Shown: piece by piece, positions 2,655 to 45,528 of the stretch
Position numbering within the stretch: position 1 is the first letter of the stretch
Layout of the letters: each line of letters opens with the position of its first letter
Assembly (NCBI RefSeq): GCF_002934365.1
Contig: NZ_PTIY01000002.1
Coordinates: 310,001-374,000, forward strand
DNA from: Methylobacter tundripaludum
GTDB taxonomy: Bacteria; Pseudomonadota; Gammaproteobacteria; Methylococcales; Methylomonadaceae
Length of the DNA stretch: 64,000 nucleotides
Direction: 5' to 3'
Program-made: the position numbers and the translations under genes
The notes under the pieces: generated by a model
Database searches by the model: none
Seen by the model: only the letters and a program-made list of their open reading frames with translations
What the model was told of the DNA's origin: nothing

Positions 2655-3302
2655 TCAATTCTTCATGACTCCCAGAATCATTGCTATATGAGCCAGCTCG
2701 GCGGCGGTTGATACGTTAAGCTTGCTTCTTATTTGCGTACCGTAATTGGCGACGGTTTTATAGCCAAGGCAAAGTTCGTCGGCGATTTTATGGGCGGTCA
2801 GGCCTTTCGCCAGCAGCAGGAATACGTCGAACTCCCTGGCGGACAGGCTATCGACAATGGTCTGATAATCATCTGCGTCGCTATTGTGCAGAGGCGCGTT
2901 TTTCATCAAGCCCTGTTCGATATAAATCTCACCGGCGGCTATTTTCTGTATCGCCTCTACCAGTATTCCGGGGGCGCTGTTTTTGGTGATATAGCCTTTG
3001 GCGCCGGCATTCATGGCCCTGTCCACATAAACCATTTCATCGTGAACGCTAAACACCAGTATTTTGGCGTTACTGTGACGGTTGCAGATGCGGCGTATAC
3101 TCTCCAGTCCGCCGATGCCGGGCATGGACAAGTCCAACACCATGACATCCGGCTGTTGTTCCAGATACAGCTGGCAGGCGGCCTCGCCGCGCTCGGCTTC
3201 GGCGATGACTTCAATGTCGTCCTCTGTCGATAACAGCATCCGAAAACCGGCGCGGACTACGGCATGGTCGTCGACCAGGATGACTTTTATCTTGTCTTTC
3301 AT
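2655..3302 (-). CDS. NarL/LuxR-type response regulator, MxaB/MoxX-like
   Basis: This 215-residue protein has a receiver domain with DDHAVVRAGF, phosphoacceptor Asp at about residue 57 (VMVLDLSMPG) and the conserved Lys in GAKGYITKNS. It is followed by a LuxR-type helix-turn-helix (LSAREFDVF to YKTVANYGTQIR). The start MKDKIKV at 3302 is chosen because it overlaps the kinase stop codon by 4 bp (ATGA); a longer upstream frame only shadows the kinase gene. It is strikingly similar along its length to the regulator beside mxaF at 43.97 kb (shared DDHAVVR, RGE.ACQ, DLSMPGIGG.ESIRR). It is probably the output of the adjacent kinase. A role in methanol dehydrogenase control is an inference. Confidence 0.88.
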   Translation of the reverse strand: MKDKIKVILVDDHAVVRAGFRMLLSTEDDIEVIAEAERGEAACQLYLEQQPDVMVLDLSMPGIGGLESIRRICNRHSNAKILVFSVHDEMVYVDRAMNAGAKGYITKNSAPGILVEAIQKIAAGEIYIEQGLMKNAPLHNSDADDYQTIVDSLSAREFDVFLLLAKGLTAHKIADELCLGYKTVANYGTQIRSKLNVSTAAELAHIAMILGVMKN

Positions 3303-4633
3303 GATAACGGGATGGTTGCGATGATGCTCGTGCCTGATTGCGGTTGAGAGTGGATGGTCAATTCCCCGCCCAAACTGTTGATTCTTTCCTTCATGCCCAG
3401 CAAGCCAAAACCGGTTTTTATCGTGTCGGCTGCACAGCCATGTCCGTCGTCGATGACTTGTAGCCGTAGCTCCGCTCCGGTTTTGGCTTGGTGATCGATT
3501 TTCAGGCTGATGGCGGCCTGCTTGGCTTGTGCGTGACGAACAATGTTGGTTAAGCATTCCTGCACGACCCTGAATATTTGAATGGTGATTTTTTGCTCCA
3601 GATGATCGACTTCGTCAGGGCAGGCGATAGTGAGTTTTAACTCGGGATTTCTAATCGCCCAGTGGTTTAACAGGTCTTCCATAGTGGCTTTCAGCCCCAG
3701 TTCTGTCAAGATCAAGGGGTGCAGTTGATGCATCATGGAGCGTACTACAGTCATTAAATGATCGCAGATAGAGACAATACTGTCAGTGGTTTGTTTGATG
3801 CCGGCAGATCCGGCTTGGGCGCGCCCGGCAGTCACAGCCATCACTTTAATCGCGGTCAGCGATTGGCCCAGTTCGTCATGCAATTCCTGCGACAGTCGTT
3901 GCCGTTCGTCTTCCTGTATTTCCAGGGTATGCTGGGTTAATGCCCGGTTTTCTTGCTGGCTTGCACTCAGCTCGCCGGTCATGTGATTGATGGCTTTGGC
4001 GATACTGTCATATTCCTGGATGGAAAAGTCCGGCAGTTTTTGGCTGTACTGTCCGGTCTCAATGACCTTGAGCGCGTCAACGATGACGGCGATGGACTTA
4101 AGCGCTTTATTGAAAGCCAGATTGACGGCCAAAAAGGTAAATAGCGTCAGCAGAAACAGAGAGCTGAAAAAGGCAATGCTTTCTTGCCAGACTTCGGTGA
4201 TTTCATCCAGCGGGTTGGCCTGAATAATCAGGGTGATTTGTTCGCCGTTGAAGCTGGTGATTTGATGCTCAACTTGAGGATAATCGGTTGCAACCAGATT
4301 GATAAACCACTGCGGCGGCTTTTCGTCATTATTGGTTGGCCGGCTTTTATGAGCAAAACTGATGATTCGCCCGGAAGGCTCTTTGAGTTGAATGCTTAAA
4401 TGCCGGGTTTGGTTCAGCGAATTGAATTTCGGCAGCCATTCGGTCTCATTAAACGGCGTTTGCGAGGCTTGGGAAAAACCGAAGGTTATCAGTTGTACGG
4501 CCAAATTGATTGATGAATCGACTTCTTTATTCACCGCATCGCGAGCTTGCCAGATGGCTATCGAGCTGCCCAGCATCAGAATACACAGGGTAGAGATCAA
4601 AATTCGTATGTTAATTTGGTAGCGTAGGCTCAT
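3299..4633 (-). CDS. Membrane sensor histidine kinase, NarX/MoxY-like
   Basis: This 444-residue HisKA_3-type kinase has a membrane segment at about residues 11-29, a periplasmic domain of about 120 residues, a second membrane segment at about 153-172, and a HAMP-like linker. The dimerisation helix carries the phospho-accepting His at about residue 252 (LSQELHDELGQSLT). The ATPase domain shows an N-box (QECLTNIVRHAQA) and G-boxes (DDGHGCA, GFGLLGMKER). The N-terminal pattern resembles the LapD/MoxY periplasmic domain family. It overlaps the regulator gene by 4 bp, so the two are co-translated partners. MoxY and MoxX regulate methanol oxidation in Paracoccus, and MxaY is a kinase of the lanthanide switch in a methanotroph. 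Orthology to either is not proven here. Confidence 0.88.
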   Translation of the reverse strand: MSLRYQINIRILISTLCILMLGSSIAIWQARDAVNKEVDSSINLAVQLITFGFSQASQTPFNETEWLPKFNSLNQTRHLSIQLKEPSGRIISFAHKSRPTNNDEKPPQWFINLVATDYPQVEHQITSFNGEQITLIIQANPLDEITEVWQESIAFFSSLFLLTLFTFLAVNLAFNKALKSIAVIVDALKVIETGQYSQKLPDFSIQEYDSIAKAINHMTGELSASQQENRALTQHTLEIQEDERQRLSQELHDELGQSLTAIKVMAVTAGRAQAGSAGIKQTTDSIVSICDHLMTVVRSMMHQLHPLILTELGLKATMEDLLNHWAIRNPELKLTIACPDEVDHLEQKITIQIFRVVQECLTNIVRHAQAKQAAISLKIDHQAKTGAELRLQVIDDGHGCAADTIKTGFGLLGMKERINSLGGELTIHSQPQSGTSIIATIPLS

Positions 4634-4878
4634 GTGCGGGTGCTGAGAAATTTTGACAAATAGCGGTATTATTCATTTATAGACGTTTATTAGCCATAGG
4701 AAAAATTCTCTTTTGCAGTCATGTTGTTTTTAACTTTATTGTTATATCAGGATTTTCTGTAATTGAAAGGTAAAGCTAATACCCTTGAAAGCAACCTCCA
4801 CATGCTAATACTTCAAACAATGATCAATTTAGAGTTGACAGTGGGGCGAGTAATCAGCATAATACGCGTCTCAGTAAG

Positions 4879-33865: not shown

Positions 33866-34825
33866 TTACGACCGGAAAAGCGGACGGAATTTATGCAGCT
33901 TGGGCAGATAGACAAGGCTTAACAGCAGCAATGCCAATAATGCCGGTTGCCAGCGAATATCGCTTTGCACGACTTTTTCAGTCGCCAGTTTCGGGTTTTG
34001 TAATGCCTGGTTAAGGTTTTTTAAGTCGGTTAAGCGGGCGTAAGCCAAACCGGATTCGGCGGCCAGTTTTTCCAAATAAGTTTCGTGCAAGGCTGTTAAA
34101 TGCTCGTTGCCGGTGGCGGCTTCGCTGCCGAATGGGGCATTGCGCGCGTTGTAGCCTTTGATTTGCGACGGGTCCAGATTCGATTGTCCGAACGTAGAAC
34201 GGTGCGGCACATCGTCCCGTGCATAAAATCCGGTTTGTTTGCCCAGGCTGTCGAACTTGGGGATAGGCACAGCCTGCAATCCGCCGGCACCGATAATCAT
34301 GCCTTTTGCTTGCCCCTTTACCGCTGAAAAATCTGCTTGGTAATTGGGATTAACGGGCGGTGCTTCCTGTCCGTCGGTAATGAAGATCAACGAACTGTCG
34401 CTTTTTTGCAGCATTTCCAACGTGCTCAGCAAGCCTTTGGCGATATTGCTGTCTGCGGCCCAGGCCATGCGCCAGTCGACTTTGCCGATCGCGGTGTCTA
34501 TTTCCGTATAAGCGGAGCACACTTCCAGCGGCTCGAATAACAGGGTTGAGCGCCTTTCGGTGAACAGGCCCAGGCCGACTTTGGATTCGCATGGCAGTTT
34601 TTGCAACAGTTCGCGCAAGGTTTGCTTGACAAAATGCAGGCGGCTGACGGCTTGGTTGTCTTGTTGGTAGTCGGTCGCATTCATGCTGCGGGTAATGTCG
34701 ATAATAAAGGTGTAGTTGTAGGTTGGGGTTTTTTGCTGTTTGCTGGGGTATAGGAACAGCACCAGCATCGCTAAAACTGCCAGCAGAAGGCACCAGGTTC
34801 GATAATCTTTTAATGCTTTGTTCAT
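33866..34825 (-). CDS. mxaL: Methanol dehydrogenase assembly protein MxaL (vWA)
   Basis: This 319-residue membrane protein has a short N-terminal membrane anchor, a von Willebrand A domain with a MIDAS-like site FIIDITRSMN and SSLIFITDGQEAP, and a C-terminal hydrophobic helix (ALLALLLLSLVYLP). MxaL belongs to the MxaRSACKL group needed for activity of calcium methanol dehydrogenase, probably by inserting calcium into MxaF. Its position after mxaK matches known mxa operons. A 27-bp inverted repeat separates it from mxaK. Confidence 0.85.
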   Translation of the reverse strand: MNKALKDYRTWCLLLAVLAMLVLFLYPSKQQKTPTYNYTFIIDITRSMNATDYQQDNQAVSRLHFVKQTLRELLQKLPCESKVGLGLFTERRSTLLFEPLEVCSAYTEIDTAIGKVDWRMAWAADSNIAKGLLSTLEMLQKSDSSLIFITDGQEAPPVNPNYQADFSAVKGQAKGMIIGAGGLQAVPIPKFDSLGKQTGFYARDDVPHRSTFGQSNLDPSQIKGYNARNAPFGSEAATGNEHLTALHETYLEKLAAESGLAYARLTDLKNLNQALQNPKLATEKVVQSDIRWQPALLALLLLSLVYLPKLHKFRPLFRS

Positions 34826-34833
34826 TGTTTTTC

Positions 34834-34973
34834 CTCGTTCCCACGCGCCGCGTGGGAATGCCGTGCAGGACGCGCTGCGTCCCGTATTTGTGCAATGTGT
34901 ATTTTTATATACTGATCGTGATTCGCGGCGCAGCGCGCCTCGACTGCATTCCCACGCGGCGCGTGGGAACGAG
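34834..34973. repeat. REP-like palindromic repeat between mxaK and mxaL
   Basis: Two exact inverted copies of a 27-base unit (34834-34860 and 34947-34973; core cccacgcgccgcgtggga) flank about 86 bp. The spacer includes a second GC-rich near-palindrome (cgcgctgcg). Each 27-base arm is itself largely palindromic. It lies inside the mxa transcription unit. Confidence 0.85.
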
Positions 34974-34983
34974 ATGGATCAAA

Positions 34984-35544
34984 TCAAGGCAAACCACGCG
35001 GAAACCCCGGTACTGTCGTCCACAACTGCGATTTTTGGTTCTTAAGTTCGTCGTCCGGCATGTCGACCCTGTCCATTTCCGGCAATAGACGCATGGCGAC
35101 TTCAAGGTTGTATTTGGCATCCCAATCGCCGCTGTTTAATGCCAAAGACTGCCGGTAGGCCTGTTTCGCCAATCCGGCCAAAGGCATTGCTTCGTTGATA
35201 TTCATGGCTTTTGCCTGCTGCATGGCTTGCTCCAGATACAGGTTGCCGAGGTTGTAGCGGGCTTTGGCCTGGAAGTCCCGGCCGCTTTTGTCCATAATCA
35301 GGCTCAGGGTCGACAAGGCCTCGTCGTAACGGTGTTTTTGCTTGAAATAAAAAGCCCGCGCCAGTCTCAACTCCGGCTCGCCGCCGATCACTTTATTAAC
35401 GGCCACATCTTTTCCCGAAACCAATTGCCGGATTAAGTCATTGTTTTGATGGATGCCGTACAACGCGCCGGCGCTGTAAACGAAAGCCGCTAAACTGAGC
35501 GCCAACGCGGCCCACAGCGTTATATGCCTGATCGTTCTTATCAT
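34984..35544 (-). CDS. mxaK: Methanol dehydrogenase accessory protein MxaK
   Basis: This 186-residue protein has one N-terminal membrane segment (about residues 8-27) and a helical, tetratricopeptide-like region (FYFKQKHRYDEALSTLSLIM; KARYNLGNLYLEQAM; AYRQSLALNSGDWDAKYNLE). It is in the expected place between mxaC and mxaL, overlapping mxaC by 4 bp (ATGA). MxaK is required for calcium methanol dehydrogenase function in Methylobacterium. A scaffold role for the assembly complex is inferred from the repeats. Confidence 0.85.
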   Translation of the reverse strand: MIRTIRHITLWAALALSLAAFVYSAGALYGIHQNNDLIRQLVSGKDVAVNKVIGGEPELRLARAFYFKQKHRYDEALSTLSLIMDKSGRDFQAKARYNLGNLYLEQAMQQAKAMNINEAMPLAGLAKQAYRQSLALNSGDWDAKYNLEVAMRLLPEMDRVDMPDDELKNQKSQLWTTVPGFPRGLP

Positions 35545-41824: not shown

Positions 41825-43639
41825 TTAATAACCTAATGCAAAGACCATCACACCGCCGCCTTGTTGAGTGTAGTGCGCCAGTTCCTTAAACGCACCGACT
41901 GCACCCAAACCTGCGGTAGGGTCTTGCAAGTCGAACACTAAGCCAACGCCGGGCCAACCGCCGACACCGTAGTAAATCGCCACATATTGCTTGCCTTTAT
42001 GTCCGAAGGTAATCGGGTGGCCGATAACGCCGGAAGGTAGTTTGAATTTCCACAATTCTTTTCCGTTCCGTGAATCCAGCGCTTTGATGTAGCCGTCCAA
42101 GGTGCCGTAGAAAACCAGATCGCCCGCCGTTGCGGTAGTGCCGCCCCAGACGGCGAATTTTTCCTGGATTTCCCATTCGAATTTACCGGTCACGGAGTTC
42201 ATCGCTTTGACTTGGCCCAAGGTGCCTTTAGGCCCCGGATACATGTTCAGCGTCGCGCCGACAAAGAACTGGCCTGCGCGGTAAGGCAGCATGAACGGTT
42301 CCCAGTCCATGCAGATATGGTTGGTACCCATGAAGAACAGTTTTTTGTTCGGATCGTATGATTCGATGCCTTGGTTGTGATAACCCATCGCGGATGGACA
42401 AATGCCTTTGGCTTCATGATCCATGTGGGTCGAAAACTCGGGATCGCGAATCGGCAGGCCGGTTTTTAAATCGACTTTTTTAACCCAGTTGACGGTATCG
42501 TCGATTTTAAACGCGTTGACCAAATCGCCGTTTTCACGGTTCAGGGTATAAACCAGACCGTTGCGGTCGGGGTGGGTCAGCAGTTTGGTCATTTTGCCGT
42601 CAACCAGCTGTTCCGATAAGCCCATGTAGTTGACGCCGGCGTAATCCCATTCGTCATGCGGCGTTTTTTGATAGCCGAATTTCGCCTCGCCTGTGTTGAT
42701 GTCGCGGCCCCAGATGGTCATCGTCCATTTGTTGTCGCCAGGACGCATGGTTTCATTCCACGGCGCGGGGTTGCCTGAGCCGTAATAGAGCATGTCCAGG
42801 TCGGGATCGAACGCATACCAGCCCCAGTTGGTGCCGCCGCCGATTTTCCAGGCGTCGCCTTCCCAGGTCTTAAGACCCAAACCGAATTGGCCGTAATGCG
42901 GGTTGGCGCTGTTAAAATCCTTGGCCAGTTTGATGTCGGCATCGGGACCTGTAGCGTAAACGCGCCAAGCCTGTTTGCCGTCTTTGATGTTATAGGCGGT
43001 GGCGTAACCTCTTACACCCAGTTCCGCGCCCGAGCTGCCGACAATGACCTTGTCTTTAGCGACAAAAGGCGCAACGGTCAGCGTGGAGCCCATCGCAATA
43101 TCGGAATTTTCCATTTTCCACAACAACTCGCCGGTCTTCGCGTTTAACGCCACGATATGGCCGTCCAGCTGATTCTGGAAAATAGTCGCCGGGTAACCGT
43201 CGCCGGCGGGCGCATAGGCCAAGCCCCGGTTGACCACGTCGCAGCACGCTACGGCGCGGGCGGCCGGGTTTTGTTTAGGTTTGTATTCCCATAAGATTTT
43301 GTCCGGCTGATCCAGGTCGATCGCGAAAATATTGTTAGGGAAGGGCGTATGCACATACATGATGCCGTCAATAACCAGCGGTCCGCCTTCATGCCCGTTC
43401 AGTACGCCCGTAGAAAAAGACCAGACCGGCTGTAGATGCTGGACGTTGTGCGCGTTGATCTGCGTCATTTCGCTAAAGTGGGTCGCACCGTAGTCTTTGG
43501 TCTGCATGACCCAGTTAGTATCTTCTTTTGACAGTCGATCCAGGGCTTTATTGGCTTGTGCCGGTATCGAAACCGAAAACAAGGCGCCGCTACAGACAGC
43601 GGATGCGACAGCGGTGCGGGTGAATTTGGAAATCCGCAT
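41825..43639 (-). CDS. mxaF: Calcium/PQQ methanol dehydrogenase large subunit MxaF
   Basis: This periplasmic quinoprotein oxidises methanol to formaldehyde. The 604-residue precursor has a signal peptide ending IPAQANKA, the adjacent-Cys disulfide [13 protein letters not shown], beta-propeller Trp-docking repeats ([39 protein letters not shown]) and the catalytic Asp in DEWDYAGVN. The residue two after the catalytic Asp is Ala. In lanthanide XoxF it is Asp, so this is the calcium-type enzyme, in agreement with the adjacent mxaI. The start MRISKF follows a strong ggagga site. The upstream region carries a phased repeat array. Confidence 0.97.
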
Positions 43640-43964
43640 AGTTCCTCCAGAGTTATGAATGTTGTACTTATATAAAGTCATAAAGCCAGCCCGTGCGTAT
43701 CAATAAGGTTTAAGTAAGATAACTAGCTTTCTTGATCAAAACGCTTGCAACACCTTATTGAAATGCAGGGCTGAACAGGCGCTCATGGTACGGGAGCGGG
43801 TGCATGCAGCGTTACGGAATAAGCCCGGAAATCGGCGGGAAAAATCCCGTAATAAACCGGGAAAATATCCTGTCTCAGGTTGAGATAAAACGGGAAAAGC
43901 TCCTATCGATTTGCCGTTTATAAACAGGCATGATGGTCTTTTTGACACGTTAAGGAGCAAAGTA
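43640..43964. promoter_or_regulatory. Divergent mxaF-mxaB regulatory region
   Basis: This 325-bp region separates mxaF (minus) from mxaB (plus). The part at 43814-43898 is a set of CGGGAAA-like units, described separately. The mxaF promoter should lie between the array and 43650; I cannot pick a secure -10/-35 pair. Confidence 0.7.
43814..43898 (+). promoter_or_regulatory. 11-bp-phased CGGGAAA repeat array
   Basis: Units acggaat (43814), ccggaaa (43825), cgggaaa (43836), ccgtaat (43847) and cgggaaa (43858) start exactly 11 bp apart. A further cgggaaa lies at 43891, three such periods on. Such helical phasing is typical of cooperative binding by a response regulator on one DNA face. MxaB is the obvious candidate binder. 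Confidence 0.6.
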
Positions 43965-44621
43965 GTGGCGGGTAAGATTAGTGTGTTGTTGGTGGATGAT
44001 CATGCCGTGGTTCGGACGGGCTACAAAGCTTATCTTTCCTTGTCCGATAAGATCGGACAGATTTATGAGGCGGACCGGGGCGAGACGGCCTGCCAAATGT
44101 ACAGCCAATATCAACCGGATATTGTGGTGGTGGATTTATCGATGCCGGGCATAGGCGGTTTTGAGAGCATCAGGAGGCTGATTAACCGTGATCAGCATTG
44201 TAAAATCCTGGTATTCAGCATTCACAATGAATTGGTTTATGTGACGCGGGCGCTTGCGGCCGGAGCGAAAGGCTATATCACTAAAAGCAGCGTGCCTGAA
44301 ACGCTGATTACCGCAGTGTATAAAATAGCCCAGGGCGGCACTTATGTTGATCCCGAGATTGCCCAGCAACTGGCGGTTTCGATGGCTGGAGAGCAGGACG
44401 AATCGGAGAAAATCAAGCTGCTTTCGCCTAGGGAGTTCGATGTGTTCTGTTTGCTGGCGAATGGCTATACCGTCCGTAAAGCGGCGGAAAAACTGTGTTT
44501 GAGCTATAAAACGGTGTGCAACCACGGTACCGTGATCAAGGAAAAAATGGGCGCGGAAACGCTGGCAGAACTGACTTTGTTGGCAAGCCGGCAAGGGCTT
44601 ATTGAAATTCGCGAAAATTGA
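43965..44621 (+). CDS. mxaB: Response regulator MxaB
   Basis: This 218-residue NarL/LuxR-type regulator has the receiver domain (LLVDDHAVVRTGY; phospho-Asp at about residue 57 in VVVDLSMPGIGG; switch Lys in GAKGYITKSS) and the C-terminal helix-turn-helix LSPREFDVFCLLANGYTVRK then SYKTVCNHG. In methanotrophs MxaB activates mxa genes and takes part in the lanthanide switch to xoxF. The GTG at 43965 is chosen because aaggag lies 8-13 bases upstream. It has no kinase beside it. A close paralogue with a kinase is at 2655-4633. Confidence 0.88.
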   Translation: MAGKISVLLVDDHAVVRTGYKAYLSLSDKIGQIYEADRGETACQMYSQYQPDIVVVDLSMPGIGGFESIRRLINRDQHCKILVFSIHNELVYVTRALAAGAKGYITKSSVPETLITAVYKIAQGGTYVDPEIAQQLAVSMAGEQDESEKIKLLSPREFDVFCLLANGYTVRKAAEKLCLSYKTVCNHGTVIKEKMGAETLAELTLLASRQGLIEIREN

Positions 44622-44628
44622 AATAAAA

Positions 44629-44705
44629 GACGAAAGACGAAAGACGAAGGGCGAAGGGCGAAGGGCGAAGGGCGAAGGGCGAAGGGCGAAGGGCGAAGGG
44701 CGAAA
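44629..44705 (+). repeat. Heptanucleotide tandem repeat, 11 units
   Basis: There are three gacgaaa-type units, seven exact ggcgaag units and a final ggcgaaa unit. A partly inverted tttcgcc stretch follows at about 44725-44740, so the transcript can fold. It lies between the convergent mxaB and mxaD genes and starts 8 bp after the mxaB stop. Confidence 0.9.
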
Positions 44706-44751
44706 AACATCTTTCGTCATTTGCCTTTCGCCTTTTGCCTATAAATATTTT

Positions 44752-45282
44752 TTATTTTTCCAGCTTTTGTTTTAGTCCCGCCAAGCCGTTCTTAAAGAAC
44801 TCATTCATCGCTTTAACCGCGGCAGCGTCATTCAAGTTTTCGGGTGGCGTATTGCCGGTGTCGCCACGGTAGAAACGGCTTTTTAGTGTAACCACGCTGG
44901 TATTGGCGTCGTTGCCCGGCGTTACTTGAAGGTTGATGGTATAGGAGCTGGCCGGAAACGCCGTTACATTTTCGGTTTTGAGGCGGTAATTGTATTCATG
45001 ATCTTTATCGCTGTAAAAATCCAGGTTTTCCACGAGCTGTCCGCCGTTTTGCAGGGTGATGGTCCGGGCGCCGTCGGAGGCGTTTTTGCCATCGCCCGAG
45101 CTTGCTTTGACGTCAGGATGCCAGCTGGCAATGGCGTCAAATTGCTTGATCGCATTCCAGACGGCGTCTACGGAAGCATTGATAGTGATGCTTTCTTTGG
45201 CTTTTTGCGGGGTCGGTCCGTGGGCAACAGAAGTTACGGGGAATAAGAGGAAACTCAATAATATTAAGGGTAAACGGTTCAT
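44752..45282 (-). CDS. mxaD: Periplasmic SRPBCC protein MxaD
   Basis: This 176-residue protein has a signal peptide ending SVAHGP and an SRPBCC (START-like) fold: SITINASVDAVWNAIKQFDA, then IASWHPDVKASSGDGKN. MxaD is a 17-kDa periplasmic protein that improves the interaction of methanol dehydrogenase with cytochrome cL in Methylobacterium. It is separated from the main operon by mxaB and has its own upstream region with cgggaaa-like motifs. Confidence 0.88.
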   Translation of the reverse strand: MNRLPLILLSFLLFPVTSVAHGPTPQKAKESITINASVDAVWNAIKQFDAIASWHPDVKASSGDGKNASDGARTITLQNGGQLVENLDFYSDKDHEYNYRLKTENVTAFPASSYTINLQVTPGNDANTSVVTLKSRFYRGDTGNTPPENLNDAAAVKAMNEFFKNGLAGLKQKLEK

Positions 45283-45324
45283 GTGATTAATGTCATTATT
45301 AAAATAACCTATTATTCATGGCTT

Positions 45325-45370
45325 CGGGTAAAAGACATCGGGTAACTTTCCCGATAACAGTCGGGAAATT
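45325..45370. promoter_or_regulatory. CGGGAAA-like motifs and hairpin upstream of mxaD
   Basis: The motifs cgggtaa (45325), cgggtaa (45339) and cgggaaa (45362), and the inverted tttcccg (45347), cluster within 46 bp upstream of mxaD. The last two form an 8-bp hairpin, tttcccga/tcgggaaa. They resemble the array between mxaF and mxaB but are not regularly 11-bp phased. Confidence 0.45.
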
Positions 45371-45528
45371 TTCGTTTTTTATGGCTTCTGGAAACGTCCG
45401 ATGCTTTGTTGCGGCTGTATGAGCGGGGCAAGGGTGCGGAAAAAGATGTTAAAATAGCAACAGGGTGGCATGAAAAAAACCGCCGCCAAACAAATCCAGA
45501 CCGAACTTTACTAACGAAATAATATCAA

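Follow-up and report, generated by a model that had tools for sequence, protein, structure and literature searches.

BvgA is a regulator of the NarL family, and PhoB-type regulators, which belong to the OmpR family, recognize 11-bp direct repeats with half-sites every 11 bp. For the Pfha promoter of Bordetella, the available portion of the published account describes three BvgA dimers spaced 22 bp apart with one monomer per turn of the helix, the high-affinity site lying farthest upstream and the last dimer abutting the -35 region (PMC7250471). In Pseudomonas, the ACTU motif of CrbR, an imperfect inverted repeat, extends from -52 to -36 and is needed for activation, as stated in the accessible part of the report (PMC5715377). 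In the case of the methanotroph Methylotuvimicrobium buryatense, the accessible sections of the genetic study report that MxaB raises mxa and lowers xoxF, that MxaY controls the mxaB transcript and acts upstream of MxaB, which is termed an orphan, and that a change of Glu147 makes MxaY constitutive (PMC5018670). In the same sections, xoxF still rises 3-fold with lanthanum when mxaB is deleted, whereas its lanthanum response is lost when mxaY is deleted (PMC5018670); the residual response implies that something besides MxaB acts on xoxF. The lanthanide switch between the two methanol dehydrogenases is known genetically, and its DNA sites are absent from the literature searched: the available text of PMC5018670 describes no MxaB binding site, none was found in the accessible parts of PMC11845868, PMC12997753, PMC8645107, PMC12482762 and PMC10728633, and a word search of PMC13390443 gave none, the scope being the open literature, outside which lie subscription papers, the original MxaB paper included.

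In this study, we have analysed a stretch of 64,000 nucleotides from Methylobacter tundripaludum, hereafter the window, in which mxaF, encoding the calcium methanol dehydrogenase large subunit of the PQQ dehydrogenase family (41825..43639, - strand), is divergent to mxaB (43965..44621, + strand), as it is in 60/70 of the relatives' regions; this arrangement, together with an MxaB orthologue, is a mark of the MxaB/MxaY switch. MxaB (218 aa) combines a receiver domain (PF00072, 6.9e-26) with a GerE/LuxR helix-turn-helix (PF00196, 3.4e-11) and is thus a NarL/LuxR-type response regulator. The histidine kinase encoded at 3299..4633 (- strand) is an orthologue of MxaY, with a LapD/MoxY periplasmic domain (PF16448) and the conserved Glu147 of the published protein, and beside it lies the gene of a response regulator with 53% identity to MxaB (2667..3296, - strand), a candidate alternative binder. 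The xoxF gene is outside the window.

Between mxaF and mxaB, the first-pass annotation had listed five CGGGAAA-like units at exact 11-bp phasing and a sixth three helical turns further on, and all six are present exactly where it placed them. Read in the window, acggaat, ccggaaa, cgggaaa, ccgtaat and cgggaaa start at 43814, 43825, 43836, 43847 and 43858 and agree with CGGGAAA in 4, 6, 7, 4 and 7 letters out of 7; the sixth, at 43891, agrees in all 7 and lies 33 bp beyond the fifth. It is the phasing, rather than the heptamer, that is unusual, since CGGGAAA alone shows no enrichment (19 occurrences in the 64-kb window against 15.45 expected). Five units at a lag of 11 reach a summed agreement of 28/35 at a single place in the window, with both strands scanned; no sum above 24 is found in the window when the lag takes any other value between 7 and 22, and none of 30 first-order Markov windows reached 28 at lag 11, their maximum being 24. 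The array is real and far beyond chance, and the evidence from relatives is much stronger than that from the window alone. A search of Rfam with 43400-44200 gave no match up to E = 1. A short repeat of the window, at 34723-35088, is visible in the translations as PTRRVGTR.

Conservation in relatives had been named beforehand as a test on which the array could fail. MxaB relatives were sought in 201 genomes of the family, and 184/201 have one at 1e-30 (presence counts across genomes, here and below, ignore the kinship between genomes). The regions upstream of mxaB come from 70 of the 101 places that reach 60% identity, taken from the best downwards and less completely further down the ranking; 64 of these 70 could be anchored on CGTTACGGAATAA, allowing up to 3 mismatches, and gave 63 distinct sequences, and none of the six that do not anchor was found beside mxaF. 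In the anchored frame, letters 9, 20, 31, 42 and 53 are A in 63, 62, 63, 57 and 61 of the 63 sequences, and the column profiles recur at lags of 11/12 and 22/23 bp to a degree equalled by none of 5000 permutations of the columns; this period persists in 29 representatives below 75% identity. Of the letters that all five units have in common, the A's are conserved best, as 11-bp phased A-tracts would be if they formed an element that bends the DNA or serves RNA polymerase in the manner of an UP element, and no regulator site at all. We consider such an element very improbable, because the GG ahead of the A's and the CC arm behind them are also conserved, most strongly at units 1, 3 and 5, and because single inverted repeats of the same kind stand at mxaB, mxaY, xoxF and a TonB-dependent receptor gene.

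The organization of the array favours a site for a dimeric regulator. The strongest repeat is that of 22/23 bp, corresponding to dimers, followed by that of 11/12 bp, corresponding to half-sites, and units 1, 3 and 5 each form the left half of an inverted repeat that is completed on the right by NCC or TCC. The array is best read, from these letters, as three inverted-repeat sites of the form GGA-N5-NCC, with centres at 43821, 43843 and 43865, which end on the mxaF promoter. The initial reading as five direct repeats was retained, but inverted repeats fit better the CC arms, the lone sites found elsewhere and the 22/23-bp peak. Units 2 and 4, half-way between the others, are conserved as well, and the three inverted-repeat dimers alone do not account for them. 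In one relative (L015), the array is longer by exactly one 22-bp repeat. Six others (L004, L013, L014, L030, L037 and L046) have extra, partly repeat-like sequence between the array and the mxaB box, beyond which L013 carries a partial second copy of the array.

A second line of evidence is given by a position weight matrix (PWM) built solely from the mxaB-proximal site (28 distinct 17-mers among 62 sites), whose GGA and TCC letters are fixed by choice because the training sites were selected by GGA-N5-TCC, a pattern that 62/70 regions yielded. Slid over the array, the PWM has its four best mean centres at 33, 56, 55 and 11 of the anchored frame, that is, at three sites two helical turns apart. 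Site 1 (units 1-2, TACGGAATAAGCCCGGA; 43813..43829, + strand), with its centre at 43821, about -43 from the inferred mxaF start, overlaps the -35 region; its core GTTACGGAA is nearly invariant in the 63 sequences, and the site is the fourth-best mean position of the array. Site 2 (units 3-4, GCGGGAAAAATCCCGTA; 43835..43851, + strand), centred at 43843, 22 bp from site 1 and at about -65, is the best mean position. Site 3 (unit 5 and the TCC arm, CCGGGAAAATATCCTGT; 43857..43873, + strand), centred at 43865 and at about -87, is, in the present genome, the array's strongest inverted repeat, and its distance to site 2 is 22 bp here and 23 bp in many relatives. Family mean scores are similar for sites 2 and 3 (-0.63 and -1.14); in the window, site 3 scores 14.2, site 2 scores 2.3 and site 1 scores -4.4. 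The array has thus withstood the conservation test, and its sites are found again by a matrix derived from another site, both of which support the proposal that it is a likely regulator site. CGGGAAA is a common heptamer, and coincidence, or neutral conservation of the DNA that separates two divergent genes, might be invoked, yet we attach a negligible probability to this idea in view of the period test, the independent PWM and the recurrence of the same geometry at other promoters.

The position of the sites relative to the promoters is also constrained. The inferred mxaF -10 (TACCAT, family consensus TAnnAT; 43785..43790, - strand) has its A, T, T and A in 63, 58, 58 and 59 of 63 distinct promoters, and TAnnAT lies 31 bp from the site 1 centre in 57/63 of them and 30 bp in 4, with none found in 2, so that the proximal site abuts the -35 region. 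A distance of about -43 from the start is the usual place for an activator that touches RNA polymerase. As for a -35 element of mxaF, AACGCT, the hexamer that was found by eye where such an element normally lies, is unlike TTGACA and was discarded, and a poor -35 is to be expected of an activated promoter. The sixth unit is contained in a separate site at the mxaB promoter (ACGGGAAAAGCTCCTAT; 43890..43906, + strand), with its centre at 43898, about -43 from the inferred mxaB start, which has the best PWM score of the 64-kb window (20.9) and itself belongs to the training set. The mxaB -10 is inferred at 43929..43934 (CATGAT, + strand), and CATnAT is found 31 bp from the mxaB box in 56/62 promoters.

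Relatives in which mxaB lies elsewhere indicate which of the two genes the array accompanies. The array is still at mxaF in G027 and G052, where the genes are about 14 kb apart (0 mismatches), in G001 (about 6 kb, 3 mismatches) and in G017, where mxaB is about 2.4 kb off (1 mismatch) and a weaker copy also precedes mxaB; the array therefore serves mxaF. Altogether, 16/20 mxaF upstream regions contain unit 1 with no more than 3 mismatches; at 4 mismatches, by our estimate, the best match in 500 bases would often be due to chance. The exceptions to an array at mxaF are G185, at a contig end, and G015, where mxaF and the array are separated by about 38 kb; in the latter (L005, L186), this stretch between mxaF and its promoter has inverted ends GCTATTGGAATAGTTGGACGC and is probably a mobile element. 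The interpretation of the first-pass annotation is refined in two points: the array stays with mxaF when mxaB is elsewhere, and the sixth unit belongs to a site of mxaB itself. The best explanation of the conserved letters is that the array is an activator operator of the mxaF promoter and a candidate target of MxaB.

Similar boxes are found at other genes of the switch. In the 64-kb window, the PWM scores 9 or more at four places, namely the mxaB box, array site 3, mxaY and the mxaD-like gene; five shuffled windows contain 1 to 6 such places, and four is therefore no enrichment, yet all four are at switch genes. The box upstream of mxaY (4696..4712, - strand; centre 4704) is 31 bp from an inferred -10 (AATAAT, 4668-4673), and it is present in 3/4 genomes examined (absent in G024), with the -10 at 31 bp in 3/3. 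Upstream of an mxaD-like gene (PF10604) at 44752-45282 (- strand) are two boxes 23 bp apart (45338..45377, - strand; centres 45346 and 45369) and an inferred -10 (AATAAT) at 45311-45316. Two boxes 22 or 23 bp apart occur in 45/47 usable upstream regions of this gene (five of 52 entries left out, and at least three further loci too short), and 45/47 have a -10 at 30-31 bp from the proximal box centre, the -10 search being lenient (several forms, 27-34 bp). The distance from site to inferred -10 is accordingly the same 31 bp at mxaF, mxaB and mxaY, and 30-31 bp at the mxaD-like gene. A tandem repeat occupies about 44650-44720, between mxaB and the mxaD-like gene.

Outside the window, a TonB-dependent receptor gene (L220, G000 C4:262718) has a box in 14/14 loci examined in the genus, 46 bp from TAnnAT in all of them, and in 22/22 further loci of the family (L329-L350), from genomes chosen for having MxaB. 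In the latter, the box scores 12.6 to 21.4, the lower value being reached by 3/880 shuffles, and lies 45-46 bp from TAnnAT in 19 and 31 bp in 3; the -10 search was again lenient (TAnnAT at about 20-70 bp), and the receptor counts leave out the partial matches L233, L234, L240, L241 and L351-L355. In other families, 3/5 loci examined have the box. The identification of the receptor with LanA was rejected: LanA was discovered in M. buryatense, and in that organism the receptor is without a match at 1e-100. Of six loci examined among the other exact matches of the box in the own genome, four are in open frames, one is upstream of the TonB receptor and one (L218) is unplaced; a seventh (L203) is in an open frame, in a count that leaves out L211-L213, L215 and L243.

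The first-pass annotation had also looked to xoxF for a CGGGAAA-type box, an expectation that is borne out, with exceptions. Among the 108/110 xoxF regions scored, with a box defined as a best PWM score above the 95% level of shuffles, it is present in 44/64 genomes with MxaB and in 11/44 without, where about 5% is expected; 20 of the 64 genomes with MxaB have no scoring box, and the counts include L111 (with MxaB) and L092 (without), in which the best matches are away from the box place. The boxes of the 44 MxaB-containing genomes lie near the start region in 29, in the -35/-10 spacer in 14 and farther down in 1. In the genus of the window the box is just downstream of the -10 (GAGTGAAAATTTCCTGT), and in genera g11 and g12 it is between the -35 and the -10 (TTAGGAAAAAATCCTT); we infer that a regulator at either position should repress. 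In some genera, the box is overlapped by a palindrome, TGGnGTGA/TCACCCA (by eye), which may add to its conservation. The xoxF leader (L073 and other xoxF upstream regions) contains a palindrome, ACTAATATTAGT, that hardly varies, and, just ahead of the ribosome site, a possible hairpin. Considered as structured RNA, 17 leaders give 12 pairs, 1 of them with changes on both sides, which is weak covariation, and the leaders of 4 loci have no Rfam match above the gathering score. In M. buryatense 5G itself (G010, NZ_KB455575.1), we found the array (L043), the mxaB box, the mxaY box, the mxaD-like box pair (L282) and a box in the -35/-10 spacer of xoxF (L120), and these conserved boxes fit the published MxaB genetics of this organism.

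As to the protein that occupies the boxes, MxaB is favoured over its paralogue by co-occurrence and by the published genetics: MxaB (at 60% identity or more) and mxaF are both present in 86 genomes, mxaF only in 2, MxaB only in 9 and neither in 104. We hold with reasonable confidence that MxaB binds the array, with or without help from the paralogue. G176 retains the array, and no MxaB orthologue was found in it. MxaB being an orphan, with its link to MxaY left open in the available text of PMC5018670, the paralogue has to be taken seriously as an alternative or a partner. It adjoins mxaY in 4/4 genomes checked, M. buryatense (L327) included, and shares with MxaB much of the recognition helix (YKTVxNxGTxI), so that it may recognize the box as well; MxaY and the paralogue may form the true two-component system upstream of the orphan MxaB. 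Among Methylophaga and similar regulators of about 50% identity (L310-L323), a link to a kinase, as in the paralogue, is usual, and no strong box was found just upstream of them. That the boxes are bound mainly by the paralogue, MxaB acting indirectly or on a subset, would agree with their persistence in genomes without MxaB (at xoxF in the 11/44, at the TonB receptor in G120) and with the lanthanum response of xoxF, which survives deletion of mxaB and is lost with mxaY, in the sections of PMC5018670 at hand. We nevertheless think it unlikely, as mxaF tracks MxaB, while a more distant relative occurs in most genomes with or without mxaF; in genus g14, the genomes without MxaB have no xoxF box, though one relative, presumably the paralogue, is still present at about 1e-60 in most of them; and it is MxaB that is reported, in those same sections, to raise mxa and lower xoxF.

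Both regulators, or a heterodimer, might also use the same boxes, with mxaB and mxaY under the partner of MxaY and mxaF and xoxF under MxaB. The presence of boxes at all of mxaY, mxaB and mxaF is in line with such sharing, as are the place of MxaY upstream of MxaB and the only partial loss of xoxF control without MxaB (PMC5018670, available text); we see it as possible, if somewhat doubtful, and as overlapping with binding by MxaB, so that the probabilities assigned to the two do not sum to one. Binding by MxaB remains our preferred explanation, and the best account, by analogy with BvgA at Pfha, is that this NarL/LuxR-type regulator binds cooperatively as phased dimers. Phosphorylated MxaB would bind inverted GGAAA half-sites as dimers, with firm binding first at site 3, the distal inverted repeat. 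From there, further dimers would cooperatively occupy sites 2 and 1, every dimer lying on one face of the DNA and the last one, at about -43, recruiting RNA polymerase to an mxaF promoter with a poor -35. A single dimer site at the same position would activate mxaB, resulting in positive feedback, and like sites would act at the mxaY and mxaD-like promoters. At xoxF, a regulator bound over the start region or between the -35 and the -10 would block the promoter. Without lanthanides, MxaB would thus be active, with mxaF on and xoxF off, and with lanthanides it would be inactive.

It is conceivable that the position of the box relative to the -10 carries the whole metal switch, with MxaB, perhaps together with the MxaY-linked paralogue, turning mxaF, mxaB, mxaY, the mxaD-like gene and the TonB receptor on and xoxF off, and with repression of xoxF reached separately by different genera, through a box over the start region or in the spacer; on this broader model we are evenly divided. 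The boxes supply the exact letters to mutate, and their position predicts the direction of control. They also place mxaY in the same feedback loop, with the paralogue beside it as a possible missing part, and nominate the TonB-dependent receptor as a new member of the regulon.

The M. buryatense MxaB/MxaY lanthanide switch involves the same proteins and target genes as here, and has the same boxes at five promoters. The array, known here from its sequence, appears to be the same kind of architecture as that of BvgA at Pfha, whose primary site TAAGAAATTTCCTA, as printed in the available part of the paper, resembles the present box, with a gap that reads N4 there and is N5 here (PMC7250471); the conservation of the half-turn units 2 and 4 sets the present array apart from Pfha, and the regulon and the signal differ too. 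CrbR, of the LuxR family, shares with the present box, as far as the accessible text goes, an inverted repeat just upstream of a promoter, whereas its ACTU motif has another sequence, is a single site and responds to acetate. From PhoB-type regulators, the present case differs in that MxaB has a LuxR/GerE domain and the boxes are inverted repeats.
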